Position numbers and translations under genes: made by a program. 13,500 bases of DNA, taken from Acidobacteriota bacterium (GTDB taxonomy: Bacteria; Acidobacteriota; Terriglobia; Terriglobales; Acidobacteriaceae). Position 1 is the first letter of the stretch, and each line of letters begins with the position of its first letter. This document shows positions 1 through 13,500 of this stretch, piece by piece. The notes under the pieces were generated by a model. The model ran no database searches, had not been told where the DNA came from, and saw only the letters and a program-made list of their open reading frames with translations. Location: assembly GCA_021793595.1 (NCBI GenBank), contig JAJYSL010000104.1:1-13500 (forward strand). Direction: 5' to 3'.

Positions 1-228
1 GACAATATTTTGAAGCGGCTGCTGATCCACATCGGCGCATTCAATATCAGCCTCATCCTGCGGAAGATGCTGGGCGCGGGCACGCCACGAGAGCTGAGAA
101 ACCGCGCTGCGAGGCTCATTTTGCGCCTTCTTGAGTGGCTCACCAGCGGCTATCGACCAGATGGCGCGGCAGAATCCCGCAACGACCCAATTCTCGCCCG
201 TTTCGGCAACTACCGCTCCGCCGATTGA
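1..228 (+). CDS. Transposase, C-terminal end only (gene starts before the window)
   Basis: The frame is open from base 1 and ends at TGA 226-228, giving about 75 residues. It begins D-N-I-L-K-R-L-L-I-H and contains 'IGAFNISLILRKMLGAGTPR'. A stretch of the form 'N-x-x-KR-x-LIH-x-x-x-FN-x-x-L-x-x-R-x-x-x-G-x-GTPR' is, from memory, the typical end of DDE transposases of the IS1182/IS5-like groups, where it follows the final catalytic Glu helix. The catalytic residues themselves lie outside the window. The TTG at 10 is not a believable start; the gene runs in from the left. No ribosome site is visible and no terminal inverted repeat could be identified downstream. It may belong to an intact element or to a remnant; the window cannot tell. 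The family assignment is from pattern memory only. Confidence 0.6.
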   Translation, partial: DNILKRLLIHIGAFNISLILRKMLGAGTPRELRNRAARLILRLLEWLTSGYRPDGAAESRNDPILARFGNYRSAD

Positions 229-700
229 GATCTCGGCCCATCTGGAATTTAGCTACTTGCACCACGGGCTAACAAATGTGCTCCGCGCCAACTGCCGTGG
301 ATGGCGCCGCCCAGGAGTATGGGAGAGCCAGCGCCGTGAACAACTCCTGATCACCGCGGTCCACGGCCAAGAGGTTGGTTGAAAGAGCACCCGGCGAATT
401 GGTAGACGGAACAGGAGAGGCAATCTGCGGATAGAGCGGGCACTACATCGGCTTTGCACAACTCATAACTCAAAGATCGATAATTCATTCGCGTCCCTCT
501 TCTACCCGCAGCAGCACCTTGCGTCTCAAGAAACGGCCCTCGGCTGGCATGCTTCTCATGCACATTCCCGCAGTCGAAGTCCCGAGCAGGTATAGTCTTC
601 CGCTGAATTCGTCGATACAGCCGCTGGCGATTTGCGCGCCGTTCTGATAGGGGGAGGTTCTAATCGTGCATTGCCGTGCCAGTCACGCAGCAGATACGAG
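229..700. other. Gene-poor stretch after the transposase
   Basis: About 470 bases hold only short, overlapping frames on both strands (the longest 60-83 codons) with no domain I recognise and no convincing ribosome sites. It lies between a transposase end and the stop of the leftward crp-like gene, so it probably contains the insertion-sequence right end plus decayed or non-coding DNA. I could not see a transposon terminal repeat, a terminator with a T-run, or an RNA gene. A short stretch near 390-411 resembles the D-arm of a tRNA-Leu but has no partner arms. Confidence 0.4.
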
Positions 701-1411
701 CTACACTTCCGCGTAGCTTGCCAATGCCATCTGATTGTGGATGAATAGCGTCGAACCACGAAAATCCAGCAGGTGCCGATTTTTGAAATCGTTTAGAGTC
801 CGCGTGACGGTTTCGCGAGAAGCGCCAATACACTCGCCGATTTCACCATGCGTCAGCGTGAGCTTGAATTGATTGCAGTGATTGGTTGCATCGGCGGCCG
901 CACACAGCTCCAGCAGTAGCCGTGCCAGCTTCACCGGCGCGCTGGGCGCGAGTCCGACGGTGCGCAGTTGTTCACACGCCCGCGTATAGTCCAGGCTTAA
1001 ATCGCGTGCCACGCTTGCATAAGCGGCGGGATAGCGTAACAGGAACTCCAGAAAATCCTGCCGCCGCACCGATGCGATTTTGCAGGTATGCAACGCCTCT
1101 GCGGTCATTTCGTATTCCTTGCCGGAAAGAACTGAAGTCAGTCCTGGCAATTCTCCCGGTCCGGCGATGCGCAGGATCAGCCGGCGACCATCGATCGAAT
1201 TCATCGAAAGTTTCACCTGACCCTCCAACAGAACGAACACGCGCGAGGGATTTTGTTTCTCCTCAAACAAGACTTCGCGAGGCTCATACGTCTGTCGAAT
1301 TGACATGGATTCAAAGTCGACCAACGCTTGCGGTGGTAATGCCTTGAAAAACTCCCCCGCATGATACGGATTGCAACGATCTGTCCGCTCGGCGTGATAG
1401 GTGTGTGGCAT
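701..1411 (-). CDS. Crp/Fnr-family transcriptional regulator
   Basis: The 236-residue protein has the normal Crp/Fnr length. Residues about 20-130 form a cyclic-nucleotide-like beta-roll ('VLFEEKQNPSRVFVLLEGQV', then 'RIAGPGELPGL'), followed by the long dimer helix and a winged HTH at about 170-225 with recognition region 'GEIGECIGASRETVTRTL'. The cAMP-contact pattern (RSA after the GEL box) is absent and there is no N-terminal cysteine cluster for an Fnr iron-sulfur centre, only Cys13, so the effector is unknown. I chose ATG 1411, because AGGAG (1422-1426, minus strand) lies 10 bases before it and the STAS gene stops one base upstream, so the two are probably co-transcribed and coupled. A longer frame starting at 1465 would lie inside the STAS gene. 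It is probably a DNA-binding activator or repressor in the cytoplasm; its targets cannot be read from the window. Confidence 0.9.
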   Translation of the reverse strand: MPHTYHAERTDRCNPYHAGEFFKALPPQALVDFESMSIRQTYEPREVLFEEKQNPSRVFVLLEGQVKLSMNSIDGRRLILRIAGPGELPGLTSVLSGKEYEMTAEALHTCKIASVRRQDFLEFLLRYPAAYASVARDLSLDYTRACEQLRTVGLAPSAPVKLARLLLELCAAADATNHCNQFKLTLTHGEIGECIGASRETVTRTLNDFKNRHLLDFRGSTLFIHNQMALASYAEV

Positions 1412-1412
1412 G

Positions 1413-1742
1413 TCAATTATTCTCCTGATTGTCGTTCGTTGTATTGCGCTGAGCTTGCTCTGCAAAAGCCTCGGTCAACGGGCTTCCAGTAAGAATTGCC
1501 GGCTGTTTCTCTCGACAAATCTGGCGCAGAACCTGCATACCGCCGACGTCAACATAGGTCACACCACGCAGATCGAGGGTCGCCGAACCCTTGTCGAGCG
1601 TAGTCGCCAGGTCGCCCCAGACTGCAGCCAGTTCCTCGGCCCATGGACCAACGACTCTTCCCTCTAGCTTGATGACGGCTGCGTTCGGATTGTTCGCGAT
1701 CGTTATTCGTAACGTAAAGTGGCTCGTGCCTGCGCCATGCAA
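1413..1742 (-). CDS. Small STAS-domain protein
   Basis: This 109-residue protein is a single STAS fold: beta strands 'AAVIKLEGRVVGPWAEEL' and 'ATLDLRGVTYVDVGGMQVL', then helix and strand 'QPAILTGSPLTEAF'. In anti-anti-sigma factors such as SpoIIAA the loop after 'VxYxD' carries the phosphorylated Ser (D-S-x-G). Here the loop is D-V-G-G, so the phospho-site is missing and classic partner switching by phosphorylation is unlikely. The only start in frame is TTG 1742, because TAG closes the frame at 1746-1748; no Shine-Dalgarno is visible, so the start is uncertain. Its stop TGA (1413-1415) is one base from the ATG of the crp-like gene. It may act as a protein-protein module for that regulator or for the neighbouring sigma-54 activator, but this is inference from position only. 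Confidence 0.75.
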   Translation of the reverse strand: MHGAGTSHFTLRITIANNPNAAVIKLEGRVVGPWAEELAAVWGDLATTLDKGSATLDLRGVTYVDVGGMQVLRQICREKQPAILTGSPLTEAFAEQAQRNTTNDNQENN

Positions 1743-1749
1743 TATCTAA

Positions 1750-1767
1750 TGGCACGTCTTGGGCCAA
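1750..1767. promoter_or_regulatory. Candidate sigma-54 (-24/-12) element, readable on both strands
   Basis: On the minus strand TTGGCCC begins at 1767 and GG (1765-1764) is exactly 10 bases from GC (1753-1752), upstream of the STAS-crp pair. On the plus strand TGGCACG (1750-1756) matches the -24 consensus fully and GG (1751-1752) is again 10 bases from GC (1763-1764). The minus-strand version matches consensus TGGCACG-N4-TTGC less well but points at the genes. It would put the transcript start at about 1740, on the TTG codon of the STAS gene, which is awkward. The neighbouring sigma-54 activator makes such a site plausible; function is unproven. Confidence 0.3.
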
Positions 1768-1863
1768 ACCTGATATCTCGCGCCACCGAATCCTGCATGT
1801 TACTCGTATAAAATAAGTTATAGGTGAGTTGCGGTGCGGAGATTTGTTCTCTTGCAAAGCTAG

Positions 1864-1879
1864 GTGACGAAGTGACGAA
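1864..1879. repeat. Tandem octamer GTGACGAA x2
   Basis: Two perfect head-to-tail copies of GTGACGAA lie between the end of the sigma-54 activator gene and the STAS gene, about 100 bases upstream of the candidate -24/-12 element. They could be an upstream activator site or chance; the repeat is short. Confidence 0.3.
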
Positions 1880-1900
1880 GACGATATTTCATCGCCGAGA

Positions 1901-4180
1901 CTACATATAGTCGCTGCGCTCGATACCGAGCTTCTTCAACCTGGAGTTCAGCGTGGTGCGCTTCAGGCCAAGTCGTTCTGCCGCTCCACCCGATCCGCCA
2001 ATCATTCCACGGGTCTCTCGTAGCACGCGCAGGATGTGTTCCCGTTCAGCGGCTTGCAGGTTTGGGTCGACTTCGGGAACTACTTCGGATTCGGCAATCG
2101 TCAACTCCGCCAGTGGAACATGAAGTATGCTGCCGTGGGTGAGAATCACGGCGCGTTCGATAAAATTCTCCAACTCCCGAATGTTCCCCGGCCACTTCCA
2201 GCTCACCAGCGCCTGCATGGATTCCGCAGGGATCGATTCAATCGACTTTCCCATGCGCCGACCGTGCTTGTCGACGAAATGGCGAACCAGCATCGGGATA
2301 TCGCTGCGACGATCGCGTAAGGGCGGAGCAACCACCGGAAAAACTTTCAATCGATAATAAAGATCGCTGCGAAATTGCTTTTCTGCCACCATCTTTTCCA
2401 GGTCACGATTGGTGGCTGCGATCAAACGAACATCCACACGGATATTCTGCGTTCCACCCAGCCGCTCGATCTCCCTCTCCTGCAAAGCACGTAGCAGCTT
2501 GGGTTGCAGATCGAGCGGCATCTCACCAATTTCGTCCAGAAACAATGTGCCTTCGTTCGCCAGCTCCAGACGACCCATTCGCCGCGCAATCGCCCCGGTG
2601 AAGGCGCCCTTCTCGTGACCAAACAGTTCACTTTCCAGCAGGCCTGCCGGAATCGCGGCACAGTTCAGCTTGATGAACGTCCTCTCGCGTCGAGGACTGA
2701 GCCGATGAATCGCGCGCGCCAACAGTTCCTTGCCGGTTCCCGTTTCTCCTTGAATCAGCACCGTCGCATCGGTCGGCGCGACAGTCTCAATATCCTTCAG
2801 CACATGTTTCAGTCCGGTACTCTCACCGACAATGTCTTCAAAGCGATGCTCCATGTTGAGCTCGTCTTCGAGGTATTTCTTCTCCTGTGAGAGTTGGTCA
2901 CGCAGGTCGGCGATTTGCCGAAAGGCAAGCCCATTGTTCACCGCCATCGCAATCTGACCGGCGATTTGCCCCAACATGTCAGCTTCGCGCTGGCTGAATG
3001 CCGACTCCATCCGGCTGGCCACCATCAGAGTTCCCAACGTCTGCCCCCGGTTGATTAAGGGCACCCAGCATCCCGACATCATCTGCTTGTCCGTCAAATG
3101 CCGTACTGCTTCTCTGGCGTAGGGGCCGAGGTTAATTTGATTCAGCAATACGGGCTCGCCCAACCGAAACGCCGAGCCGGCGGGTGAATTTTCAATCGGG
3201 ATAATGGTCTCAGTCTGGTTGGCCTGTTTACCCTCTCCAGCTTCAAGAAACTGCTCTCGCAATCCACCCGATACCGGATCGCGCAGCGCCAGAGTCGCGC
3301 AATCATGTGGTACCACATCGCGAATACTGGCAGAAATTGCGGACAGCATTTTGCGGATATCCACATTGGCCAGTAGAACCGTGCTCAGCTGTAGCATCAA
3401 CGCTTCTTCCGCGCGTTTGCGGTCGGTAAAATCCCGAGTAATTTTGGCAAAACCGGTCAGCTCGTTATGCCCGTCGAAAATCGGCGCAATCACGACATTC
3501 GCCCAGAAACGCGACCCATCTTTCCGTATCCGCCATCCCTCCGCTTCAAATCTTCCCTTGGCTCTGGCAATCCTCAATTGCTCGTCCGGCTTTTTTCGCT
3601 CCGACTCGTCATTGGGATAAAAAATGGAGAAGTGCTGCCCGATAATTTCGCCCGCGCTATAACCTTTGATGCGCTGGGCTCCCGGATTCCAAGTCGCGAC
3701 ATATCCTTTGGGATCGAGCAGAAAAATGGCATAATCCTTCACGCTGTCGACAATCGACCGTAACTGCTGATCGGACCGCCGCAGCGCGTCTTGCGATATG
3801 CGCTGAAAAGAAACATCCCGCACGAAGCTCAGAACGATCGGACCATTCGCCGTCTCCACCGAGCGAAGCATGATGTCGACCGGAATTTCGCTGCCATCTT
3901 TCCGCAGACCAAACAGGTTCAGACCGCCACCCATCGATCGGGTTCGGGGGTGCGCATTATAGTCCTCGCGGTAAGCGGGATGCCTCCCGCGAAAACGCTC
4001 AGGAACCAGGTTTTCGATCGGCAGACCGGTCAGCTCGTCCGAACCATACCCGAACATCGCCTCTGCCTGGTGATTTGCCGCACGAATGAGCCCCTGCGCA
4101 TCCGTGACCAGGATGGCATCGGGGGAAAAATCGAAAAGCTGTTGGATCGCCGGAAAAGCGAAGGTATCCTCTGGCGGCAT
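1901..4180 (-). CDS. Sigma-54-dependent transcriptional activator (PAS-PAS-GAF-AAA+-Fis HTH)
   Basis: The 759-residue protein is a bacterial enhancer-binding protein. Two PAS domains lie at about 12-125 and 140-255, each closing with an 'RKDG' PAC strand; a GAF domain covers about 275-418; a short coiled-coil linker follows at 420-445. The AAA+ domain (about 449-680) has Walker A GETGTGKE (478-485), the sigma-54 contact loop GAFTGA (525-530), Walker B GTLFLDE (544-550) and an arginine-finger region 'FRSDLYYRL' (603-611). A Fis-type HTH sits at 711-752 ('[20 protein letters not shown]'). The layout resembles FhlA/NifA-type activators with an N-terminal sensor in place of a receiver domain, so the input is probably a small molecule, redox state or gas rather than a kinase. 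The ligand is not readable; no LOV cysteine motif is visible. ATG 4180 has AGGA 8 bases upstream. It likely activates the GG-N10-GC promoter(s) nearby. Confidence 0.95.
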
Positions 4181-4468
4181 GTGCGTTCCTACCTATTTTA
4201 ACTTTATGCGCTCCAACCGTCGTTCGCCGAGCACCTGAAATCAATTTCAACGTTTCAGAATATTTTGCCGCATTCGCAAGTGCCAGTCGGCTCGTGACTT
4301 TGCGATTCGACCACTCTGCCGCAGCCGTTTCTTTTGAACGACAGAATAAGAAGATGGCCCCAGTATCCTTCGGGATGATTGGAGAAAATGATGAATCGTC
4401 GACCTTAGCCACGTCATCAGAGAACGTGCGCCGCAAACAGGACACCTGCTTGAAGGAATCGTAATTTC
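4181..4468. promoter_or_regulatory. Divergent intergenic region with a small palindrome
   Basis: These 288 bases separate the leftward sigma-54 activator from the rightward membrane-protein gene and should hold both promoters. I see no convincing -35/-10 pair. TGAAAT-CA-ATTTCA (4236-4249) is a perfect 6+6 inverted repeat placed about 55 bases before the activator start and could be an operator, though repeats this short also arise by chance. Small frames ending at 4464 look unlike genes. Confidence 0.35.
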
Positions 4469-4912
4469 ATGAGCAAACTCTCTTCGGAGTTAACCTCCGA
4501 GCCGATCACTGCGACCACTCCTCGGATGTGGGCAGTCAGCCTTACCAGCCTGCTATTCATTCTGTTGCAAAGCGCCTGCACGGTCGCCGTCGCTTTTAGC
4601 GGCATCAGCGCTGCCGCAGGGCTGGGATCGTTCGCTGCCGCCGTCGGCCTTACCCGGCTTACGGGCAGTTTTCACGCTGACCTGATTCGTATTCCCATGA
4701 TGATTTTGGCTCTTTCAGGTTCGATATTTACACTTTATATCGTTCGTCGCGCCCGGGTTTTACGAGCCCGTCCCGCATCGCAATGGCGGGTCCGCCCTCT
4801 AACTTCGAAAGAAAAACACAAGGAAACCTTTCAGATTGTGCTTTCCGTACTTACTATCCTGCTGATCGCAGCCGAACTGGTGACCCATGTGCATATCACT
4901 CACGGCTTCTAA
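4469..4912 (+). CDS. Small membrane protein of unknown function
   Basis: I do not recognise this 147-residue protein. It has a polar N-terminus (1-19), a hydrophobic helix at about 20-43 and a small-residue-rich segment (44-60, Gly/Ala) that may be a second helix. A clear helix follows at 72-92, then a basic stretch (93-118, many Arg/Lys, likely cytoplasmic by the positive-inside rule) and a last helix at 121-141. The tail is 'THVHITHGF', with three His in the last nine residues, which might bind metal but could be incidental. ATG 4469 is preceded by AAGGA at 4453-4457, 11 bases away. It is followed by a GC-rich hairpin and lies upstream of the bufferin operon on the same strand, but a 229-base gap containing two hairpins suggests a separate transcript. 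Confidence 0.7.
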   Translation: MSKLSSELTSEPITATTPRMWAVSLTSLLFILLQSACTVAVAFSGISAAAGLGSFAAAVGLTRLTGSFHADLIRIPMMILALSGSIFTLYIVRRARVLRARPASQWRVRPLTSKEKHKETFQIVLSVLTILLIAAELVTHVHITHGF

Positions 4913-4917
4913 TTGAA

Positions 4918-4935
4918 CCGGCGACCCAGCGCCGG
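4918..4935 (+). terminator. GC-rich hairpin after the membrane-protein gene
   Basis: CCGGCG and CGCCGG form a perfect 6-bp stem with loop ACCCAG, five bases after the TAA stop. There is no T-run after it, so it may be a weak terminator or an mRNA 3' stabiliser. Confidence 0.35.
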
Positions 4936-5025
4936 CGACTCAGCGGTTTGTCAAAACGTTCGCGAAACAGTCTGAAATATTGTCCTCTTACTGATGAATC
5001 GTCGCAGGCCCCCAAACAACGAAGA

Positions 5026-5042
5026 TTTCGCTCCCAGCGAAA
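5026..5042. terminator. Hairpin in the region before the bufferin operon
   Basis: TTTCGCT-CCC-AGCGAAA is a perfect 7-bp stem with a 3-base loop, followed by A/T-rich AATAATTT on the plus strand. It could end transcripts from the membrane-protein gene and insulate the bufA promoter region. The lack of a clear T-run keeps this uncertain. Confidence 0.35.
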
Positions 5043-5057
5043 ATAATTTGCCGTTCT

Positions 5058-5090
5058 TGTAACCAAATGCGATCTGGGGGATTCTAACGT
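5058..5090 (+). promoter_or_regulatory. Candidate ECF-type promoter region for the buf operon
   Basis: TGTAACC at 5058-5064 resembles the GTAACC -35 box that I recall for the Caulobacter SigF regulon, which includes buf operons. A matching -10 at the usual spacing of about 16 bases is not visible; CGTT at 5088 is 23 bases away. It is the only such box in the gap before bufA, and the operon encodes its own ECF factor, so a promoter in this region is likely but its exact position is not settled. Confidence 0.3.
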
Positions 5091-5141
5091 TGCACAGCCC
5101 GCGTGGAAACGCGCGAGACTGCACAACCAGGAGGATTCACA

Positions 5142-5444
5142 ATGAAGAATTCGATGAAATCGATCATGCTGAGCGCAGCGGTGGGCGGAATGCTTGGCTT
5201 TCCCGCGGTAGCTCTGCACGCAGCGACTCCCAACTCTGCGCCCAACACTGTATCGGCAAACGGCCAGTATCTTGGGCAAACCGCCTTTTCCGGGCTCTCC
5301 GCCATGGAGAAGCACTCTTGTAAAGGCAAGAACAGCTGTAAAGGCAAGGGTGGTTGCAAGTCCAGCGACAACGGATGCAAAGGCAAGAACAGCTGCAAGG
5401 GTAAAGGTGGTTGCGCCACCGACGGTTCCAAGATGCCTGGCTAG
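5142..5444 (+). CDS. bufA: Bufferin-type copper-binding RiPP precursor (BufA2-like)
   Basis: The 100-residue precursor has a Sec signal peptide (1-27, hydrophobic core about 7-24, cleavage near 'LHA|A'), a Ser/Asn/Gln-rich spacer (28-58) and a low-complexity core. The core has six cysteines at 60, 66, 72, 79, 85 and 91 in two copies of CKGKNSCKGKGGC joined by KSSDNG. Low-complexity CKGKxSCKGKGGC peptides next to DUF692 and DUF2063 genes are the BufA2/HvfA type. In this family MNIO enzymes convert core cysteines to thiooxazole-type heterocycles and the exported peptide chelates copper in the periplasm. The start is ATG 5142, because AGGAGG (5129-5134) lies 7 bases before it; a GTG at 5103 would put the ribosome site inside the gene and spoil the signal peptide. 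It leads a six-gene operon. Modification and copper binding here are inferred from the family. Confidence 0.9.
   Translation: MKNSMKSIMLSAAVGGMLGFPAVALHAATPNSAPNTVSANGQYLGQTAFSGLSAMEKHSCKGKNSCKGKGGCKSSDNGCKGKNSCKGKGGCATDGSKMPG
5319..5414 (+). repeat. Two 39-base coding repeats in bufA
   Basis: Copy 1 (5319-5357) and copy 2 (5376-5414) each encode CKGKNSCKGKGGC. They differ at five bases, all synonymous (Cys TGT/TGC twice, Lys AAA/AAG twice, Gly GGC/GGT once), so the peptide is conserved while the DNA has drifted. Within each copy the CKGK unit is itself repeated. Confidence 0.9.
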
Positions 5445-5460
5445 TCTTCGTGGAATGGTT

Positions 5461-5491
5461 CCTCCTGCGAAGAGACTCTCTTCGCAGGGGG
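5461..5491 (+). terminator. Strong hairpin between bufA and bufB (attenuator or mRNA stabiliser)
   Basis: The arms 5461-5474 (CCTCCTGCGAAGAG) and 5478-5491 (CTCTTCGCAGGGGG) pair over 14 bp with one G-T wobble; the loop is ACT and the inner 11 bp are perfect. It starts 16 bases after the bufA stop and ends 33 bases before bufB. It is followed by GGAATATTTC, which is A/T-rich but has no true T-run, so it is more likely partial termination or protection of the bufA mRNA 3' end than full termination. This would give more precursor than enzyme. Confidence 0.7.
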
Positions 5492-5524
5492 GAATATTTC
5501 AATCGCACCTTCTCAGGATGAAAC

Positions 5525-6403
5525 ATGCCAGCCAATCGTTTCAATGGATTTACCGAATACGGCGTAGGGATTGGGTTGCGCGTCCCCCACTACCAGCACA
5601 TTTTGGAGAAGAAACCGGTCGTCGATTGGTTTGAGATCATCTCCGAAAACTACATGGTGGATGGAGGACGCCCACTGACCGTGCTGGACTCCATACTGGA
5701 GCAGTATCGTGTCGTACAACACGGCGTCTCCATGTATTTTGGCTCCGCCGATCCGCTGAATCGTGAGCACCTGAAGCGCCTCAAATCTCTGGTGCGCAGA
5801 ACTGGCACAGCATGGCTGTCCGATCATCTCTGCTGGGGCAGCGTCGATGGTCGATATACCCACGATCTGCTGCCGATGCCCTACACCTTTGAGGCCGCCC
5901 GATTGACCGCGGAAAAGATTCGCCAGGTTCGGGACTTTGTCGAGGTTCCGGTGGTGGTTGAAAATGTGAGCAGCTATGCGGAATTCCACGTATCCGAGAT
6001 GGCAGAGTGGGAATTTCTGAATGAAGTGGTTGAGCGCGCGGACTGCGGCATCTTGCTCGACGTAAATAACATCTACGTTTCGTCACAGAACCATAATTTC
6101 GACCCACGCGTGTATGTCGATGCGGTTCCGGCGCACCGGGTAGCGCAGATCCATATCGCAGGACACTCAAAGTTCGAGAAGTACATCCTCGACACACATG
6201 ATCATCCCGTTCTTGACCGTGTATGGAGTCTGTACGAGCGTGCGATCGAGCGCTGTGGACCCACCGCAACATTGCTGGAGTGGGACGATCGAATTCCTTC
6301 CTTCGACGAAGTGCATGCCGAGGCGTTAAAGGCGAACAAGTATCTGAAAGCCGCCTCTACCGAAACATCGAAGCCGGAAAAAGTCCTGGAGTACGCGAGA
6401 TGA
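5525..6403 (+). CDS. bufB: MNIO-family peptide-modifying enzyme (DUF692, BufB)
   Basis: The 292-residue protein has the usual DUF692 length. It is a TIM barrel with the family's metal ligands and motifs in order: SENY (40-43, Glu41), QHGVSM (His66), WLSDHLCW (Asp100, His101), YTHDLLP (His113), VENVSSY (Glu146, Asn147), LLDVNN (Asp179, Asn181), QIHIAGH (His210), DTHDHPV (Asp223, His225, Asp226) and LLEWDDRIPSF (Glu252, Asp254). Multinuclear non-heme iron oxidases of this family oxidise cysteines of RiPP precursors with oxygen. The substrate here is almost surely the adjacent BufA, and BufC is the partner. ATG 5525 has AGGA (5515-5518) 6 bases before it. The stop overlaps bufC as ATGA. All key residues appear intact. 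It acts in the cytoplasm before export of the precursor. Confidence 0.95.
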   Translation: MPANRFNGFTEYGVGIGLRVPHYQHILEKKPVVDWFEIISENYMVDGGRPLTVLDSILEQYRVVQHGVSMYFGSADPLNREHLKRLKSLVRRTGTAWLSDHLCWGSVDGRYTHDLLPMPYTFEAARLTAEKIRQVRDFVEVPVVVENVSSYAEFHVSEMAEWEFLNEVVERADCGILLDVNNIYVSSQNHNFDPRVYVDAVPAHRVAQIHIAGHSKFEKYILDTHDHPVLDRVWSLYERAIERCGPTATLLEWDDRIPSFDEVHAEALKANKYLKAASTETSKPEKVLEYAR

Positions 6404-7308
6404 CCAGTCTGCAGGAATTGCAACATCGCATGGCCAAGGCTGTGATGCAGCCTTTGACTGCACGGGAGCAGATGCGACGCCGGAATTCTGATGGAAAGTC
6501 GAATGAAGTAGAAGCTGACCAGTTCATCCGTCCCAATGACCGATTGACTTCGTTTGAACGCCTGGAAATTTACAACCGTCAGTATTGGTTTCGCTTGTTC
6601 TCAAGCTTTGAGGAAGATTTTCCCGGCGTGCAGGCAGTCTTGGGCCGGAAGCGATTCCAAGCTCTGATGCGGGCCTACCTTGAGACGCACCCTTCAACTT
6701 CGTTCTCCCTTCGCAACCTGGGATCGCGGCTGGTGAGTTGGCTAGAACAGAATCCTGCGTGGGCTGAACCGCACTCTGAAATGGCCATCGAAATGGCCCG
6801 TTTGGAGTGGGCGCACATCGAAGCTTTCGACAACGCAATATGGCCTTCGTTGACTGTGGAGGCTCGAGCACGGATGGGCGCAGAGTCACGTATGACATTG
6901 CAGCCGCATGTCAGGCTGATCGAGGCACACTATGCGATTGACGATGCGCTGATCGCCGTTCGCAATCAAAGCAGCAGCAGAGACACCTCCAGCAATAGCG
7001 CGTCGACCGGACACGTCAGTAAACGTACGCGAGCTCTTCGCGAGATGAAACGAGAGACCGTCCATATCGCCGTGCACCGGTTTGAGGACACCGTGTACTA
7101 CCGTCGCCTTGCGGCAGAAGACTACCGATTGTTGCTGGCGTTACAACAGGGAGTCGCACTGGGAGATGCAATCGACATTGCGTTCGACGGCAGCTCGATT
7201 CCGGAACATGAGCAACCGACGTATTTGCAATCGGCTTTCGCCTATTGGACGACCATGGGATGGTTTTGCACGCCGCCCGTAGATCGGGAAGGTGAAAGAA
7301 ATTCATGA
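6400..7308 (+). CDS. bufC: DUF2063 partner protein of the MNIO enzyme (BufC/HvfC-like)
   Basis: The 302-residue protein begins at ATG 6400, which overlaps the bufB stop as ATGA; the frame stays open further upstream to 6223 but that part lies inside bufB. The N-terminal DUF2063 domain (about 5-105) shows the family pattern: 'RLEIYNRQYWFRLFSSFEED' then 'FPGV..VLG...F..LM.AYL..HPS.S.SLRNLG..L..WL'. The C-terminal half is less conserved and contains a Ser/Asn-rich linker (about 190-205) before a second folded part (about 215-300). In HvfC/BufC systems this protein binds the precursor leader and presents it to the MNIO enzyme; I infer the same role. The stop overlaps the doxX start as ATGA. It is cytoplasmic with no membrane segment. 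Confidence 0.9.
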   Translation: MTSLQELQHRMAKAVMQPLTAREQMRRRNSDGKSNEVEADQFIRPNDRLTSFERLEIYNRQYWFRLFSSFEEDFPGVQAVLGRKRFQALMRAYLETHPSTSFSLRNLGSRLVSWLEQNPAWAEPHSEMAIEMARLEWAHIEAFDNAIWPSLTVEARARMGAESRMTLQPHVRLIEAHYAIDDALIAVRNQSSSRDTSSNSASTGHVSKRTRALREMKRETVHIAVHRFEDTVYYRRLAAEDYRLLLALQQGVALGDAIDIAFDGSSIPEHEQPTYLQSAFAYWTTMGWFCTPPVDREGERNS

Positions 7309-7778
7309 AGGTTTTTGCTACGTTGTATGCTCGTTTTGCTGCCTTAGCCTCCTACCTTCAGTCTCCATTCCTCCTGGCCGTGCGCCTGTATTGGGGCTGG
7401 CAATTTGCCCAATCCGGATGGGGACGCTTGCATCATATAAGCCAGGCGACTTCTTTCTTCGCCAGCTTGAACCTTCCGTTTCCAGAGGCGACGGTCATCT
7501 TTATTTCCAGCCTGGAATTTGTGGGAGGAATCCTCTTGATCGTCGGGCTCGCGTCCCGGCTCACCAGCTTGTTGCTGGCCGGCGACATGCTGGTGGCGTA
7601 TTGGATGGCCGACCGCGAAGCCCTCTCCTCGATCTTCTCCGATCCCGGGAAGTTTTATGGGGCTGACCCTTACACGTTCTTATTTGCAGCCTTGATCGTG
7701 TTGATCTTTGGGGCCGGTCTGTTTTCAGTAGATGCGTGGCTGTCGCGACGCTACCAAGCCTGGATCGATCGACCATGA
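7305..7778 (+). CDS. DoxX-family membrane protein (BufD-like)
   Basis: This 157-residue protein has four hydrophobic helices (about 20-38, 61-82, 86-102 and 121-142) and the DoxX signatures 'AVRLYWGWQFAQSGWGRL' near the N-terminus and 'FISSLEFVGGILLIVGLASRLTSLLLAGDML' in the middle. ATG 7305 overlaps the bufC stop; GGAAGGTG at 7287-7294 is a plausible ribosome site. DoxX proteins are common fourth genes of bufferin operons and are thought to serve membrane electron transfer or quinone chemistry. Whether it supports the oxidative MNIO reaction, copper handling or export is not established. The stop overlaps the next gene as ATGA. Confidence 0.9.
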   Translation: MKVFATLYARFAALASYLQSPFLLAVRLYWGWQFAQSGWGRLHHISQATSFFASLNLPFPEATVIFISSLEFVGGILLIVGLASRLTSLLLAGDMLVAYWMADREALSSIFSDPGKFYGADPYTFLFAALIVLIFGAGLFSVDAWLSRRYQAWIDRP

Positions 7779-8401
7779 TGCCGACGTTGCAGGATAGAGA
7801 TGAGGCGCAGATGATTGCGTCCATCCTTGCCGGGGACTCGCACCAGTTTCACCGGCTCATCCGACCCTATGAGAGAAGTCTGTATGTTATGGCGCTCTCC
7901 ATGCTGCGAAACGAGGCCGATGCAGAAGATACTGCGCAAGAAGCGTGCCTGAAGGCATTTCGGAACCTGTCAAACTTCCGCGCTGATTCAAAATTCGGTA
8001 CCTGGCTGATCAGCATCACGCTCAACGTAGCCCGCAATCGCCTGCGCCGAAATCGATTGACGCACATGGAATCTCTTGACGTTCCATCCGAAGAGCAGGG
8101 ACACGTCTCGCCGGCTTTATTGCGAGATTGGCGGGAAGTGCCGTCGGCGGTTTTAGAACGCGCAGAAGTACGACTGATGCTTCAGAAGGCGATCGTTGCC
8201 TTGCCGGAGATCTACCGCGAAGTATTTCTTTTGCGGGACGTGGAAGAATTGAGCATCAAAGAAGCAGCGGAAACATTAGGCATCAGTGAAGCGTCGGTGA
8301 AAGTGCGACTGCATCGCGCGCGAACGATGCTGCAGAAAACTCTGGCACCGGAATTAAAAAGCCTGGTACCGCAGAAAGGGCGGTGGTTTCCATGGTTATA
8401 G
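7775..8401 (+). CDS. ECF sigma factor (RpoE-like), in the buf operon
   Basis: The 208-residue protein is a group IV sigma factor. Region 2 (about 25-95) holds 'DAEDTAQEACLKAFRNLSNFRADSKFGTWL', the -10 recognition helix. Region 4 (about 133-186) holds 'ALPEIYREVFLLRDVEELSIKEAAETLGISEASVKVRLHRAR', the -35 recognition HTH. ATG 7775 is chosen because it overlaps the doxX stop (ATGA 7775-7778); no independent Shine-Dalgarno is visible, so translation is probably coupled. A GTG at 7736 inside doxX is unlikely. The end overlaps the anti-sigma start by 10 bases. Its place at the end of the transcript it probably drives would make a positive feedback loop held by the anti-sigma factor. The target promoter is inferred. 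Confidence 0.95.
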   Translation: MMPTLQDRDEAQMIASILAGDSHQFHRLIRPYERSLYVMALSMLRNEADAEDTAQEACLKAFRNLSNFRADSKFGTWLISITLNVARNRLRRNRLTHMESLDVPSEEQGHVSPALLRDWREVPSAVLERAEVRLMLQKAIVALPEIYREVFLLRDVEELSIKEAAETLGISEASVKVRLHRARTMLQKTLAPELKSLVPQKGRWFPWL

Positions 8402-8652
8402 ATTGCAAGCACGTTTGGAACAACATCTCGGGCTACTTGGATGGAACTCTCGATCCGGCTGTCTTGCAGCAGGTTCAGAAGCATTTGGAGCATTGCGGTA
8501 TCTGCTCTGCCATTCTGGACTCAACCCGAAACATTCTGATCCTCACCGCCGACGAGCGGGTCTTTGAGTTGCCTCTTGGTTACAGTGACCGTTTACACGC
8601 TCGACTCGAAGCGGAAATCCAAGGATTATCTCTGTCTCCGAATGGCAGTTGA
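8392..8652 (+). CDS. Zinc-finger (zf-HC2/ZAS) anti-sigma factor, small and soluble
   Basis: This 86-residue protein starts 'MVIDCKHVWNNISGYLDGTL', the usual zf-HC2 opening, and has the zinc motif H31-x3-C35-x2-C38 ('HLEHCGIC'), with Cys5 and His7 as further possible ligands. No membrane helix follows the domain; the protein ends in a short charged helix, so it is a cytoplasmic ZAS protein like RsrA or ChrR rather than a membrane-anchored one. ATG 8392 is preferred, with AAAGGG at about 8375-8380 upstream; GTG 8383 would add three residues. It overlaps the sigma gene by 10 bases, the usual coupling for a 1:1 pair. It should hold the ECF factor until zinc-thiolate release by oxidation or metal displacement. 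Confidence 0.85.
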   Translation: MVIDCKHVWNNISGYLDGTLDPAVLQQVQKHLEHCGICSAILDSTRNILILTADERVFELPLGYSDRLHARLEAEIQGLSLSPNGS

Positions 8653-8744
8653 TCCGTGGAATGGTCGGCGTTGCCGTCTACTCCGCCTGCTTCCGTGTAT
8701 GGCTCTTCTCCGCGAGAACAAGAATAATTCAGCTCTTCTGACAA

Positions 8745-10412
8745 ATGGCGCATCATTTTTCTTCATCGCTCACTCTCGTAGATACTGTTGCTATGTCGGA
8801 GACCGCTGCGGTATTAGGAAAGATCGGACTTCCAGCCAGTATTCGAGAACTCACATCCCGCAAGTGGGATGTCGTGATCATTGGCGCCGGACATAACGGC
8901 CTCGCCTGCGCTGCCTATCTGGCTCGCGCTGGTAAGTCCGTGCTGGTACTTGAGAGCCGCGAGCGTGTGGGTGGCGCCTGCACCATTGAAGAGCCTTTTC
9001 CCGGTGTGCTGATGTCTCCCTGCGCCTATCTCGCGGGGCTGCTGCATCCGCTGGTGGTTCAGGAACTCGATCTTCCCCGCCGTGGTTTTGTGTGGACGCC
9101 TGCGGTGAACGGCCTGTTTGTTCCGTTTCTGGATGGCAGCAGTGTTCAACTGTGGGATGACGACGATCGCTGCGAACAGGAAATCCGTCGATTTTCTCCG
9201 AGGGACGTCGAAGGCTGGCACGCCATGAGTGATGTGGTGCGGCGATTGCGAAATTTGCTCCGCCCCGCCGCGGGCATGTTTGACGGCAATCTGGATGACA
9301 ATCGGCGTGATGCGTGGATTGGAGATGCACCCACCCACGAGCAACTGGAAGAACTGCTGGCGGGTGATACTGAAGCCCGCAGCCTGCTCTTCGACTGGTC
9401 CATGGCAGAATTCGTCGAGCGATACCTGACCGATGAGCGCTTGCAAAGCGCCTATCTTGGCCAGGGAGTCATCGGCACCAATGCAAGCCCATTCGACGCG
9501 GGTACGGCTTCGATCCGATTCCACCATTCCTCCGGGAGGCTTGGAGGAATGCCCGGCATGTGGGGATACGTGAACGGCGGTATGGGCATGATCTCCTTCT
9601 ATTTTTGCGATGCAGCACGTGAGGCTGGAGCGGTCGTGGCCGCCGGCGTTCCGGTTTCGCGCATCCTGCCGGCGGAAGGTGTGTTGCTCGAAAGCGGCGA
9701 ACGGATCACGGCTCCGATTGTCATTTCGAATGCCGATCCGATTTGCACACTCACGATGCTCGATGGCTCCGCCGACGCGGTATGGGAGAAAAAGGTGCGC
9801 TCCGTACCGATCCAGGGATGCACGGTAAAGCTGAACGTATTGCTGCGCGAACTTCCCAACTTCATGGCGCGGCCGGGGACTCTTGAGCCTCATCACTACG
9901 GCCAGATCAATGCGCCGCTGACGAAATCGGAGTGGAAAGCCAGCTACGCATCGGCCCGCGCTGGAGGCCTTGCGGACCACCTGTGGTGCGAACTTTACTT
10001 TCAAAGCGTACACGACACCAGCGTAGTCCCTGTAGGCATGCACACCATGAGCGTCTTCGCGCAGTACGTGCCGTATGCCTTCTCGTCGGGCAGTTGGGAA
10101 GATCGTCGCAATGAGGTGCGAGCCCTGGCGCTGCGTTCAATCGGCCGTTTTTGCAGCAATCTCGAAAATGCGGTGGTAGATGCGCAAGTGCTCGGCCCTC
10201 CTGATATCGAGCAGAAAGTAGGCCTGACAGGTGGACACATTTTTCAGGGCGAGTGCCTGCCTGCGTATATGTGGAACCATCGCCTGTCCGCCAGAACTCC
10301 GATGAAAGGCGTCTATCTTTGCGGCGCATGTACGCATCCGGGAGGTAGCGTCATTGGCATCAATGGCCGCAACGCTGCGATGGCTGTTCTGCGCGATCTG
10401 AATGGCTCCTGA
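8745..10412 (+). CDS. FAD-dependent oxidoreductase (phytoene desaturase / PYROXD2-like)
   Basis: The 555-residue protein opens its fold with a Rossmann FAD motif: 'VVIIGAGHNGLACAAYLARA' (GAGHNG at 47-52), Glu70 for the ribose and 'RVGGAC' (74-79). The C-terminal FAD-closing motif is 'GVYLCGACTHPGGSVIGINGRNA'. This long variant with the GHNG dinucleotide motif and THPGG end is the PYROXD2-like branch of the phytoene-desaturase family; its substrate is unknown in bacteria and a carotenoid role is not indicated because no phytoene synthase is nearby. The start is uncertain: ATG 8745 and ATG 8793 are both without a clear Shine-Dalgarno, and 8793 would still keep the fold. It follows the anti-sigma gene by 92 bases on the same strand, so operon read-through is possible but not shown. 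Confidence 0.9.
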   Translation: MAHHFSSSLTLVDTVAMSETAAVLGKIGLPASIRELTSRKWDVVIIGAGHNGLACAAYLARAGKSVLVLESRERVGGACTIEEPFPGVLMSPCAYLAGLLHPLVVQELDLPRRGFVWTPAVNGLFVPFLDGSSVQLWDDDDRCEQEIRRFSPRDVEGWHAMSDVVRRLRNLLRPAAGMFDGNLDDNRRDAWIGDAPTHEQLEELLAGDTEARSLLFDWSMAEFVERYLTDERLQSAYLGQGVIGTNASPFDAGTASIRFHHSSGRLGGMPGMWGYVNGGMGMISFYFCDAAREAGAVVAAGVPVSRILPAEGVLLESGERITAPIVISNADPICTLTMLDGSADAVWEKKVRSVPIQGCTVKLNVLLRELPNFMARPGTLEPHHYGQINAPLTKSEWKASYASARAGGLADHLWCELYFQSVHDTSVVPVGMHTMSVFAQYVPYAFSSGSWEDRRNEVRALALRSIGRFCSNLENAVVDAQVLGPPDIEQKVGLTGGHIFQGECLPAYMWNHRLSARTPMKGVYLCGACTHPGGSVIGINGRNAAMAVLRDLNGS

Positions 10413-10521
10413 CAGATAACTCCCGCCATGTAGCTGCACGCTGAAACAAAAAACTGGCAACCGAGCGATCGATGGGAGTACAACAAAGCCAGCGCTTTGG
10501 ACTTATCGCAAGGAGGAAATT

Positions 10522-11079
10522 TTGAGCGACTCTACACTAGCCCCCGCAACACCCGGTGCAAAAAGCAGTGGACGAACAATCGTCGGCGTTCTGTTGATCA
10601 TCCTCGGTTTTGCCGCCATTCTGCTGCCATTCATCGCAGGCATTGCGGTGACCGCCTTGATCGGCTGGCTCTTGCTATTCGCCGGCATCGTTCATTTGAT
10701 TTATTGCTGGCATTCGCGCAGTACCGGCGGGGTGGCATGGCAACTGCTGATCGCAATCCTATATTTATTTGTCGGCTTCTATCTCATTTTTCATCCTGCG
10801 CGTGGCCTTGTTACGCTGACCCTGCTGTTGGCCTCCTACTTTGTGGTGGAGGGCGTCATTGAACTTGTTCTTTATTTTCGTCTGCGTCGCTCTCACCGTG
10901 CCGGCTGGTTTCTTTGGGACGGTCTGATCACGCTGTTGTTAGGCGTTCTGGTATGGGCTCACTGGCCATTCAGCTCTGTCTGGGTGCTCGGTACCTTAAT
11001 CGGTATCAGCCTGCTGATCAGTGGATTTACTCGGCTCTTCGCTAAGCCGACATTTGCTTCCGCAGGGCTGGTCGTTTGA
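10522..11079 (+). CDS. HdeD-family (DUF308) membrane protein
   Basis: The 185-residue protein has a polar N-terminus (1-18) and six hydrophobic helices (about 19-40, 45-63, 73-93, 97-118, 128-147, 152-172), the usual layout of the HdeD/DUF308 family. Typical features are 'G..LI.LGF.A.LLPF' in helix 1, 'GWLLLFAGI.HLIYCWHSR' at helix 2 and 'HP..GL.TLTLLLA.YF.VEG' in the middle. HdeD of E. coli is an inner-membrane protein linked to acid resistance; its molecular action is unclear. The start is TTG 10522, supported by AGGAGG (10511-10516) 5 bases before it. It is monocistronic by appearance and converges with the polymerase gene, with only 32 bases between the two stops. Confidence 0.9.
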   Translation: MSDSTLAPATPGAKSSGRTIVGVLLIILGFAAILLPFIAGIAVTALIGWLLLFAGIVHLIYCWHSRSTGGVAWQLLIAILYLFVGFYLIFHPARGLVTLTLLLASYFVVEGVIELVLYFRLRRSHRAGWFLWDGLITLLLGVLVWAHWPFSSVWVLGTLIGISLLISGFTRLFAKPTFASAGLVV

Positions 11080-11111
11080 AGCATTCGGCAGAATATGACC
11101 ACGCGAAACAA

Positions 11112-13400
11112 CTAATGAAAATCGTGGGAGCGCAGCGCAAGCGCGCCATAGGCAAAAGACATCAGTCGAGTTGCCTTCACGTGAATCACACCATCCTGAT
11201 TTTGAAGGGGTCCTTCGACAATCAGAAATTTGCTGCGCGTTACAACCAGTCGCTCCCGCTCATACAGATCGGGCGTGACGATGACATTGGCAATGCCGGT
11301 TTCATCTTCCATGGAAAGGAAGATGAAACCCTTTGCCGTGCCCGGACGTTGCCGCGCAATGATGCAACCCGCTGTGCGCACGTAATTTCCATCCTTCTGT
11401 TCGCGCAATTCCTTTGCAGAGAGTACATGTTGCTGCTGCAAGGCTGCGCGACGATAATGCATGGGATGTTTGCCAACCGTAAGCCCGGTACCGGCGTAAT
11501 CGGCAATCAGCCGATCCTCGATATTCATTTGTAGAAGCGGCTTTCCCTCCGAATCATCCTGCAATGACGCAACATTCCTCTGAAACAACGGCCCTTCCAG
11601 CTTCCCGGCACGTTCCACCTGCCAAAGGGCATCGCGACGGTGTTCAACTCCATTCAGCTGATTCAAAGCGCCGATGCGAGCCAGCAACGTTAGTTCTTTT
11701 CGATTCAGCAGAGGAACGCGCTGCGCAAGATCTTCCGCCGAAATGAATCGAGCATCACGGGCTCTAGATGCCACCAACGCCTGCGCCGCCTGCTTACGCA
11801 GTCCTCGCGCATAGCCAAGCCCCATCCGTAAAGAGAGGCTGCCATCGTGCTCTCGTTCCACCGTGCAGGCCCAATCGGAAATCTGAATGTCGATGGGCCG
11901 GACGCGAAGGCCATGCCGTTGTGCATCTTTTACCAGAACTGCTGGAGCATAAAAACCCATCGGCTGATTGTTCAACATGGCACAGGTAAATGCGGCCAGA
12001 TATTTCACTTTGAAATAGGCAGAGGCATAAGCGATGAGCGCGAAGCTGGCAGCGTGGGATTCAGGAAATCCATACAACGCAAATGAGCTGATATTTTGAA
12101 TGATGTTGTTTTGTGTCGTGGCATCAAGCCCATTCGCGGTCATGCCCGAACGCAGCTTGCCTTCAAGATTTTTCATTCGCTCCCAGGATCGGCGCATACC
12201 CACTGCGCGCCGTAGCTCCTCGGCTTCTGCACCGGAGAAATTGGCGACCGCCATGGCCATCCGCAACAGTTGTTCCTGAAATAGCGGCACGCCGAGCGTG
12301 CGTTTCAAAACCGGCTCCAACAAGGGATGCGGATAGCTGACTGGCTCCTTATGCTGTCGCCGTCGCATGTATGGATGCATCATCTGGCCAACGATGGGGC
12401 CCGGGCGAATAATCGCTACCTGCACCACAATGTCATAAAACACCTCTGGATGGTTTCGCGGCAGCGATGCCATCTGCGCGCGGCTTTCCACCTGAAACAT
12501 GCCCACAGTATCCGCCTGTTGCAGGGTTCGATACACCTCTGGATCTTCCGGCAGCTGAGCCAGGTCGATGGGTTCACCATAATGCTGAGGAATCAGTTCC
12601 AGGCAATCCTTCAGAACGGCCATCATCCCAAGCCCGAGCAAATCGACCTTAATGATGCCGAGATCGGCACAGTCCTCTTTATCCCATTGCACGACGGTAC
12701 GGCCCAGCATGGAAGCTCGCTCCAACGGCACCACACGGTTGAGTTGTCCTTGGCAGATCACCATGCCGCCTGAATGCTGGCCTAGATGGCGAGGCAGACT
12801 TTGAATCCGCATGGACAGGTCGAGATATTTGGCGATGCGCGGATGGGCAAGGTCAAAGCCGGCATCGTGAAATGAATGCGCCATGGTGTCCGTCTTTCCA
12901 CGCCACTCCCAGTTGCCGACCAGACTGGATAATCTGCCCAGAGTATCAGCATCGAAGCCCAGCGCTTTGCCCACTTCGCGTGCCGCAGATTTTCCGCGAT
13001 ACGTAATGACATTCGCCGTCATCGCAGCACCTAGTTCCCCGTATCGTTGATAGACATACTGGATGGCCTGTTCGCGCTTATCGACAGAGGGTAGATCCAG
13101 ATCAATGTCCGGCCATTCGCCGCGACTCTCGCTCAAAAAGCGTTCGAACAGCAGATCCATGCCCACGGGGTCGATCGCGGTAATTTCGAGGGCATAACAA
13201 ACAGCTGAGTTGGCAGCACTCCCACGACCCTGGACCAGAATGTCATGACTCTTACAGAACTGGACGATGTCCCAAACAATCAAAAAATATCCCGCGAATC
13301 CTAGCTTCGCAATCAAAGTCAATTCATGCTCAATCTGCTTTTTCGCTCGTTCCAGTAGATGTTGATTTTTCTTCGGTTCGTATGAGGATGTCCCAGCCAT
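11112..13400 (-). CDS. dnaE2: DnaE2-type error-prone DNA polymerase III alpha subunit, lacking its N-terminal PHP domain
   Basis: The open frame gives 762 residues, against roughly 1,050-1,080 for DnaE2. The palm has 'LVQGRGSAANSAVCY' (55-69), catalytic Asp100 and Asp102 in PDIDLDLP (97-104), and Asp253 in KVDLLGLG (251-258), so all three acidic residues are kept. Further landmarks are IRPGPI (331-336), the 'FPESHAASFALIAYASAYFK' fingers motif (445-464), a helix-hairpin-helix part (about 525-585) and an OB fold (about 670-745). The protein ends SHDFH, the normal DnaE2 C-terminus. The missing 280-300 residues are the PHP domain and the start of the palm. ATG 13400 has no Shine-Dalgarno, and the frame is closed by TAG at 13485-13487, so the gene is probably truncated or disrupted. 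Intact DnaE2 does SOS mutagenic synthesis with ImuA/ImuB; neither is in the window. Confidence 0.85.
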   Translation of the reverse strand: MAGTSSYEPKKNQHLLERAKKQIEHELTLIAKLGFAGYFLIVWDIVQFCKSHDILVQGRGSAANSAVCYALEITAIDPVGMDLLFERFLSESRGEWPDIDLDLPSVDKREQAIQYVYQRYGELGAAMTANVITYRGKSAAREVGKALGFDADTLGRLSSLVGNWEWRGKTDTMAHSFHDAGFDLAHPRIAKYLDLSMRIQSLPRHLGQHSGGMVICQGQLNRVVPLERASMLGRTVVQWDKEDCADLGIIKVDLLGLGMMAVLKDCLELIPQHYGEPIDLAQLPEDPEVYRTLQQADTVGMFQVESRAQMASLPRNHPEVFYDIVVQVAIIRPGPIVGQMMHPYMRRRQHKEPVSYPHPLLEPVLKRTLGVPLFQEQLLRMAMAVANFSGAEAEELRRAVGMRRSWERMKNLEGKLRSGMTANGLDATTQNNIIQNISSFALYGFPESHAASFALIAYASAYFKVKYLAAFTCAMLNNQPMGFYAPAVLVKDAQRHGLRVRPIDIQISDWACTVEREHDGSLSLRMGLGYARGLRKQAAQALVASRARDARFISAEDLAQRVPLLNRKELTLLARIGALNQLNGVEHRRDALWQVERAGKLEGPLFQRNVASLQDDSEGKPLLQMNIEDRLIADYAGTGLTVGKHPMHYRRAALQQQHVLSAKELREQKDGNYVRTAGCIIARQRPGTAKGFIFLSMEDETGIANVIVTPDLYERERLVVTRSKFLIVEGPLQNQDGVIHVKATRLMSFAYGALALRSHDFH

Positions 13401-13414
13401 AGTTGAAAGTTGAG

Positions 13415-13474
13415 CGGCGGTCCAGCCTGATTCTGAAAGAATCGGGTTGCGAAACCTTGAAGGGAGAACCGCCG
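13415..13474. repeat. Nested inverted repeats upstream of truncated dnaE2
   Basis: The outer arms CGGCGGT (13415-13421) and ACCGCCG (13468-13474) are perfectly complementary. Inside, 13423-13434 pairs with 13438-13449 over 12 bp (two G-T wobbles) with loop GAA. This two-level structure sits between the dnaE2 remnant and a rightward GTG start. Subterminal hairpins of this kind are seen at the ends of IS200/IS605-like elements, but the element type is not proven. Confidence 0.55.
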
Positions 13475-13500
13475 TGAAGAAAAGCTACCACACTATCCGT
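13474..13500 (+). CDS. Possible start of a rightward gene (nine codons visible)
   Basis: GTG 13474 is preceded by AGGGAG (13461-13466) with 7 bases of spacing, a good ribosome site. The nine codons before the window end give V/M-K-K-S-Y-H-T-I-R. This is too little to name a family; an IS-encoded transposase would fit the hairpin just upstream, but that is a guess. The first base of the start lies in the outer inverted-repeat arm, so the structure could restrain translation. Confidence 0.35.

Follow-up and report, generated by a model that had tools for sequence, protein, structure and literature searches.

A bufferin-type operon of an Acidobacteriota bacterium that probably carries its own ECF sigma factor switch and a soluble zinc anti-sigma brake

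In a 13,500-nucleotide stretch of an Acidobacteriota genome (assembly GCA_021793595.1, contig JAJYSL010000104.1, positions 1 to 13,500 of the forward strand), hereafter called the window, we examined six adjacent genes for a bufferin-like precursor peptide, an MNIO maturase, a DUF2063 partner, a DoxX-family protein, an extracytoplasmic function (ECF) sigma factor, and a zinc anti-sigma (ZAS) factor. The operon is real, and its predicted promoter code is recoverable from the sequences of relatives. We think it quite probable that the six genes form one stress operon that activates itself from a promoter at 5058-5087 and is braked by the ZAS protein, and that the regulon of its relatives takes in an exported methionine sulfoxide reductase, MsrA. 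All six reading frames were found in the places and order given by the original prediction, and the overlaps that it listed can be read directly: ATGA at 6400-6403, 7305-7308, and 7775-7778, and 10 bases shared by ecf and zas at 8392-8401. The features are as follows.

5058-5087, + strand: predicted ECF-type promoter of the whole operon, with -35 TGTAACC at 5058-5064, an 18-base spacer, and -10 TCTAA at 5083-5087
5130-5134, + strand: GGAGG, judged by eye to be the ribosome-binding site for the precursor
5142-5444, + strand: bufA-like precursor gene, 100 amino acids, with six Cys in a CKGKNSCKGKGGC-type repeat and a signal-like N-terminal stretch (by eye)
5525-6403, + strand: bufB, MNIO maturase (PF05114), over the cutoff of NF050167
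6400-7308, + strand: bufC, DUF2063 partner (PF09836), under the cutoff of the HvfC model
7305-7778, + strand: DoxX-family membrane protein (PF07681), under the cutoff of the HvfX model
7775-8401, + strand: ECF sigma factor, 208 amino acids, with regions 2 and 4 only
8392-8652, + strand: soluble ZAS-type anti-sigma factor (zf-HC2), 86 amino acids, with ligands C5, H31, C35, and C38 (C-x25-H-x3-C-x2-C)

BufB scored 354.5 bits with NF050167 (cutoff, 310) and 360.1 bits with PF05114. The bufC product matched PF09836 (59.1 bits; cutoff, 27.2) and the DoxX protein matched PF07681 (63.7 bits; cutoff, 23.6), and these two are not the HvfC and HvfX equivalogs, with scores of 43.1 bits against a cutoff of 142 and 55.7 against 80. 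A sequence search of the PDB with the DUF2063 protein gave no match. The sigma factor matched Sigma70_r4_2 (69.6 bits; cutoff, 25.7), Sigma70_r2 (61.3; 24), and TIGR02937 (106.3; 42.9), and the anti-sigma factor matched zf-HC2 (PF13490, 40.3 bits; cutoff, 22.2). The precursor had no Pfam match and only a partial match to the BufA2 model NF050166, at 35.3 bits against a cutoff of 60. Such partial matches were present in 9 of 10 precursors, this one included, and the best reached 52.5 bits, so that none passed the cutoff; the window precursor is BufA2-like only. This six-Cys precursor, of exported type as judged by eye from its signal, adjoins the MNIO, DUF2063, and DoxX genes. Among 80 loci picked by BufB alone, all 80 had a precursor match (E up to 0.01) and 24 had ZAS and ECF genes, and the gene set of the window is therefore more than chance.

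These 80 loci, the best of a BufB scan of named genomes, served as the first set of relatives. Their titles are mostly Acidobacteriota and Verrucomicrobiota, and all 24 loci with both regulators are titled Acidobacteria or a taxon of them. For the second set, 200 genomes were drawn evenly from the family of G001, the genome of locus L005. BufB passed the cutoff at 71 loci in 69 of these genomes; 66 of the loci make up the second set, and the other five (L005, L016, L028, L034, and L049) are shared with the first. Ten second-set loci duplicate first-set loci.

The original prediction raised the question of how often an ECF and zf-HC2 pair follows such clusters. A local pair was found in 42 of the 71 family loci (38/66 in the second set and 4/5 shared), and the in-line layout of the window, with the pair on the same strand downstream of bufABC, in only 15 (12/66, ten of them with doxX directly before ecf, and 3/5), all these being lower bounds because several contigs end near the cluster. 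Locus L006 of Edaphobacter modestus DSM 18101, a culturable relative, has the in-line layout. In the other layouts, the pair is divergent or lies upstream on the same strand, with or without doxX. Many precursors of the split-layout loci (e.g., L039, L046, and L056) have four core Cys, in the CKGKNDCKGQGGG form, rather than six. At L115, one stop interrupts the BufB reading frame in its assembly.

The first base of the predicted -35 element lies 84 bases ahead of the precursor gene. The window as a whole contains two copies of TGTAACC against an expectation of 0.53, and at least two were seen in 21 of 200 shuffles; the window site alone therefore proves nothing. On the + strand, -35 elements of this type lie only at 1798 and 5058. 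The motif was written after reading the upstream regions of ZAS-positive first-set loci. In the first set, less L024 and L074, which had no precursor start, the -35 part was found in 23 of 25 ZAS-positive loci (window included) and in 6 of 54 others, with 6.6% in mononucleotide shuffles, a count that is partly circular since the motif was fitted to the same loci.

The second-set test, in the same family as the fitted loci, used TGT[AT]AC[CT] within 400 bases upstream of bufA and left out L131 and L156, which had no precursor call. We divided the loci into those with a local ECF-ZAS pair (LOCAL), those whose orthologous ECF, at a threshold of at least 160 bits, lies only outside the examined stretch (TRANS; at L170, on the same contig at a distance of 14 kb), and those in whose genome no orthologous ECF was found (NONE). 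The -35 part preceded bufA in 34/37 LOCAL, 7/13 TRANS, and 1/14 NONE loci. With first-set duplicates removed by hand count, the values were 29/32, 6/11, and 1/11 (Fisher's test, 1.5e-6 for LOCAL versus NONE and 0.06 for TRANS versus NONE). For the sole NONE locus with the element, L132, the contig measures 4.7 kb and the assembly 3.4 Mb, so the assembly may not include its ECF.

Six first-set loci (L016, L020, L023, L037, L045, and L076) had the -35 part and no local pair. The three of their genomes that were examined each encode an ECF elsewhere, with 72% (L037), 69% (L016), and 49% (L045, genome G029) identity to that of the window. The copy in the L037 genome stands as motif-doxX-ecf (L081), and the ECF locus of the L016 genome (L082) holds a full motif as well.

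Whether ecf-zas is read from the bufA promoter was judged from 57 loci with both genes, 21 in-line and 36 not, in which doxX was placed by protein match. At none of the 21 in-line loci did the 320 bases ahead of ecf contain the -35 part, and the + strand of the window has none between 5065 and ecf; the in-line ecf has no sigma-type promoter of its own. Separate operons starting with doxX (doxX-ecf-zas) carried the -35 part and TCTAA in 17 of 18 cases, L139 being the exception. Given this difference, the window reads as one self-activating unit, and transcription of its sigma gene seems to rely on the promoter before bufA. The regulators thus appear to belong to the biosynthetic unit, as had been claimed, and a positive feedback loop with its own brake would be the natural reading. 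The one weak terminator-like site inside doxX (7634-7652) is no more than shuffles give.

The four ligand positions of the anti-sigma factor were invariant in all 58 ZAS proteins aligned (the window and the 57 loci), and a membrane-like stretch (19-residue hydropathy mean over 1.6) was found in none of them, the maximum being 1.22. Judged by its sequence, the window anti-sigma is ZAS-type and soluble, in agreement with the original prediction. It did not reach the RsrA equivalog TIGR03988 (30.8 versus 62.5 bits), and among the window proteins searched by Pfam (E up to 0.001), none matched NrsF (PF06532). Its sequence matches in the PDB, all with E values of 0.056 or worse, comprised sirtuin-5 chains and a single ribonuclease P protein and were taken as chance.

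Motifs in the relatives suggest that the same sigma factor likely drives exported MsrA as well. On the ECF-positive side, 25 selected genomes gave 54 matches, of which 30 loci were examined; 4 were short, and the other 26, spread over 22 genomes, were of the high-scoring, exported type. On the ECF-negative side, 13 of 14 genomes had a match, giving 18 loci, 5 of the exported type and 13 short. The motif search covered 550 bases upstream of the active-site codons. Exported copies in ECF-positive genomes had the -35 part in 15 of 26 cases and the fuller motif in 10, against a -35 part in 0/5 exported copies in ECF-negative genomes (p 0.04, weak alone) and in 0/17 short copies, 13 from ECF-negative and 4 from ECF-positive genomes (p 6e-5). 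Fourteen of the 15 hits lie ahead of an in-frame ATG; the genome pairs G008/G156 and G005/G164 give identical hits.

For the regulon, we used only the position of the motif before named genes. Exact motifs stand before bufA in two genomes, doxX-ecf in three, signal-bearing MsrA in two, and MsrB in one, and the MsrA and MsrB family assignments were confirmed. Further neighbors are NmrA-like genes (two by eye and one Pfam-checked), a CMD protein, and others. At L099, the motif precedes an FGE-sulfatase/DinB protein, which we read as EgtB-like, and at L093 and L100, in two genomes, it precedes NmrA-like genes. At L092 (G006:C13), the motif is followed first by the gene for a small Cys-rich protein and then by an efflux gene of the AcrB/CusA type (PF00873).

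From these observations we infer the following mechanism. Basal ECF sigma factor would be bound and held by the soluble zinc anti-sigma factor encoded just behind it. A cytoplasmic signal attacking the zinc-thiolate site, by thiol oxidation or by Cu or Au displacing zinc, would free the sigma factor, which would then transcribe from TGTAACC-N18-TCTAA through the genes for the precursor, MNIO, DUF2063, and DoxX proteins, for itself, and for its brake. The peptide, presumably modified by its maturation enzymes, would be exported to the periplasm and bind copper. In the relatives, the same promoter type would drive an exported methionine sulfoxide reductase, giving a regulon that buffers metal and repairs oxidized envelope proteins.

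Several results, besides the circularity of the first-set count, weigh against such a self-activating, ZAS-braked operon and its regulon. When a fitting -10 start was also required, the second-set counts fell to 22/37 LOCAL, 5/13 TRANS, and 1/14 NONE loci. Six of the 13 TRANS loci lacked the -35 part; in five of them, the ECF was only 46 to 52% identical, and L130 had 4 bases upstream. Separate operons starting with ecf had the -35 part in 10 of 18 cases and TCTAA in none, two of them (L144 and L147) having less than 80 bases upstream, so the predicted motif rule holds well for doxX-ecf-zas and poorly where ecf-zas stands alone. In front of the in-line ecf, a promoter of some other type could still exist. 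Genome-wide, the exact motif gave 19 hits in nine genomes versus 23 for the reversed control, and we rejected this count as proof of a regulon. Eleven of the 26 exported MsrA copies had no -35 part, and one of the 15 hits (L188, G199) lies inside a reading frame and is probably chance. The structure model of the window ZAS protein was poor (pLDDT 64), and no solved anti-sigma factor in the PDB matched it by sequence. The literature adds two points: oxidants left meningococcal sigma-E expression unaltered (PMC2893595), and those tested in Caulobacter raised expression no more than twofold (PMC3511200). An oxidative trigger is thus not general.

The best-surviving alternative, which we hold possible though on balance doubtful, is a switch specific for copper or gold, with Cu(I) or Au binding the ZAS cysteines and MsrA as a side target. 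Bufferins improve growth under copper stress by chelation (PMC12452194), and the GIG operons of Cupriavidus and Legionella are responsive to Cu and Au (PMC10304878, PMC5413113). However, MsrA and MsrB genes share the motif in ECF-positive genomes, and in Haemophilus a response to hypochlorite is seen for rpoE2 together with its DoxX cluster (PMC7907618). Metal and oxidant signals are not exclusive, and this alternative overlaps our preferred explanation. Copper defense, the function originally proposed, accordingly stays one possibility, while the MsrA link points at least equally to oxidative damage of the envelope.

It is improbable that transcription of the operon starts from a housekeeping or other promoter, with the ECF-ZAS pair acting mainly on other targets and standing at the operon end by chance. 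Some basal transcription is needed, the meningococcal operon being barely detectable without overexpressed sigma-E (PMC2893595), and rpoQ-rsqA of C. metallidurans is RpoD dependent (PMC10304878). Yet the -35 part is strongly associated with a local ECF, the pair recurs in several layouts, and the motif stands before separate doxX-ecf operons; the 4400-8900 region has no sigma-70-like site on the + strand, the two sites found (2.6 in shuffles) both being on the - strand. Least of all do we credit the motif as a mark of close kinship rather than a sigma site: although a single family supplied the second test set, and related loci were used to fit the initial regular expression, the core of the motif persists among relatives while the surrounding DNA differs, and the motif stands before doxX and msrA but not before operon-internal ecf and resembles the Caulobacter sigma-F site.

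Reading further, we see it as a nearly even call, leaning slightly to the negative, whether bufferin synthesis and methionine sulfoxide repair form one envelope stress regulon under ECF sigma factors across phyla, with bufferins countering combined metal and oxidant damage and not just copper. Its members could, with much the same reserve, be msrAB in Neisseria and Haemophilus, YedY in Caulobacter, which we take to be the periplasmic methionine sulfoxide reductase MsrP, and exported MsrA in Acidobacteriota. The doxX-ecf-zas cassette might likewise, though we stop just short of favoring it, have been re-placed several times in the family, as a rule with a sigma site before both halves. It may also switch a Buf1-type cluster in Silvibacterium bohemicum (L156). 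This second MNIO cluster (L156, 8495-12146; G006, the genome of L028) has a DUF2282 precursor (82.7 bits) and sits behind a 458-amino-acid protein without a Pfam match, upstream of which lies a sigma motif. Three motif copies occur in 19 kb there, and 200 shuffles give none.

Within the operon, the 80-base gap between bufA and bufB (5445-5524) folds at a dG of -35.5 (z, -5.1) into the following element, which is absent from the list of the intrinsic-terminator scan.

5451-5501, + strand: intercistronic bufA-bufB hairpin with a 16-pair inner stem, 5459-5474/5478-5493

The gap could be placed in 117 loci, and 108 gaps of 40 to 260 bases were folded. A stem of at least 9 pairs was present in 93 of the 108 and a z score under -3 in 58, with the sequence varying between loci. 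The hairpin was rejected as part of the sigma control, such stems occurring in 51 of 61 gaps without ZAS and 42 of 47 with ZAS. It may set a high precursor-to-enzyme ratio.

The history of the operon may be composite. BufB and BufC of the window cluster with those of in-line loci, and BufC falls inside starred branches that comprise 13 and 22 rows. The window ECF is closest to those of other layouts (67 to 70% identity versus 50 to 62% for in-line loci), as are its ZAS (up to 78% versus up to 72%) and DoxX (up to 71% versus up to 65%), although some identities (ZAS of L046 and L152; DoxX of L001) are artifacts of over-long or partial matches. A grouping of the window ECF with four in-line kin was not rejected (p-AU 0.083), so a cassette swap giving a mosaic operon is suggestive only.

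Other sigma pairs stand beside BufA2-like precursors. L036 has an ECF and an NrsF protein (53.1 bits; cutoff, 26.8), and at L030 NrsF scored just under the cutoff (24.4). L064 and L019 have an ECF and proteins matching DUF3379 or anti-sigma models under cutoff, and L055 has an ECF and an 88-amino-acid protein matching an anti-sigma model under cutoff. By title, these five loci belong to Acidobacteriota, Verrucomicrobiota, and one Phycisphaerales genome. A 2025 MNIO survey gives sigma and NrsF genes for Buf1 and not for Buf2 clusters (PMC12452194). If these BufA2-like clusters count as Buf2, that statement does not extend to them and is in conflict with them.

Upstream in the window lie genes for a Crp-family regulator (701-1465), a STAS-like anti-anti-sigma protein (1413-1742, - strand; by eye), and a sigma-54 PAS regulator (1901-4180; by eye).

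Among known systems, the operon of Neisseria meningitidis has a precursor that is presumably of the DUF2282 (Buf1) type, versus the BufA2-like one of the window. This operon, NMB2140-NMB2145, is co-transcribed as one unit under its own sigma-E, and NMB2145/MseR is an anti-sigma factor of the cytoplasmic ZAS kind (PMC2893595). Like the window, it combines DoxX, an ECF, and a soluble ZAS protein, and it is autoregulated, as is predicted for the window; Cys4, His30, Cys34, and Cys37 of MseR have the spacing of C5, H31, C35, and C38, and the sigma-E regulon includes msrAB, like the predicted MsrA link in the relatives of the window (PMC2893595). The gonococcal homologues include DUF692, DUF2063, DoxX, and a putative periplasmic protein (PMC2954202), from which NMB2141-2143 can be read as precursor, MNIO, and DUF2063 genes. 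Unlike the window, where doxX is fourth, Neisseria has it first, the phylum is different, and the -35/-10 elements are GTMAGBWTT/CGTCTAAH with a 12- to 13-nucleotide spacer, against TGTAACC-N18-TCTAA (PMC2893595). In Haemophilus influenzae, RpoE2 and the 67-amino-acid cytoplasmic ZAS protein HrsE control a homologous DoxX/COG3220/DUF2063 cluster and periplasmic MsrAB, similar to the regulon proposed here, and hypochlorite induces rpoE2 and the cluster; the regulator genes, unlike those of the window, lie apart from the cluster, near msrAB (PMC7907618). With these two systems, the suggestion that the arrangement is little described falls away.

Caulobacter has ECF-controlled MNIO-DUF2063(-DoxX) operons, CC3254-57 and CC2907-05, with a -35 of GTAACC as in the window (PMC3511200). 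The sigma-F site is GTAACC-N16-CGAA, similar motifs precede sigF-CC3252 and CC3254-57, and sigF-nrsF also controls YedY, which is only partly sigma-F dependent (PMC3511200). The original prediction described SigF/NrsF as encoded elsewhere; by gene number, CC3252-CC3253 stand beside CC3254-CC3257, one of the two operons (PMC3511200). Unlike the window, Caulobacter has a six-helix membrane protein, NrsF, as anti-sigma factor and DUF2282 precursors, and sigF-nrsF forms a separate unit with no strong autoregulation in the conditions tested (PMC3511200). In Cupriavidus, the ECF/anti-sigma pair rpoQ-rsqA likewise stands beside homologous genes, gigPABT, induced by Cu and Au, but the pair is divergent, RsqA is predicted to be membrane bound, and RpoQ control is not shown (PMC10304878). 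Buf2 clusters share with the window a six-Cys precursor, MNIO, DUF2063, and DoxX (PMC12452194).

A limited literature search, with five hits of which two were looked at, found no paper on the regulation of such systems in Acidobacteriota: the word "sigma" is absent from the text of PMC8692599, and PMC2954202 deals with Neisseria and mentions one acidobacterial family member. The present analysis offers a predicted promoter motif, regulator pair, and target list for bufferin control in Acidobacteriota, and would link copper peptides to methionine sulfoxide repair in a way that is directly testable in culturable soil bacteria. Operons of this sort with an internal ECF/ZAS pair are already known in kind from Neisseria. 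New relative to Neisseria are the Acidobacteriota host, the BufA2-like precursor, the other gene order, and the likely link to exported MsrA.

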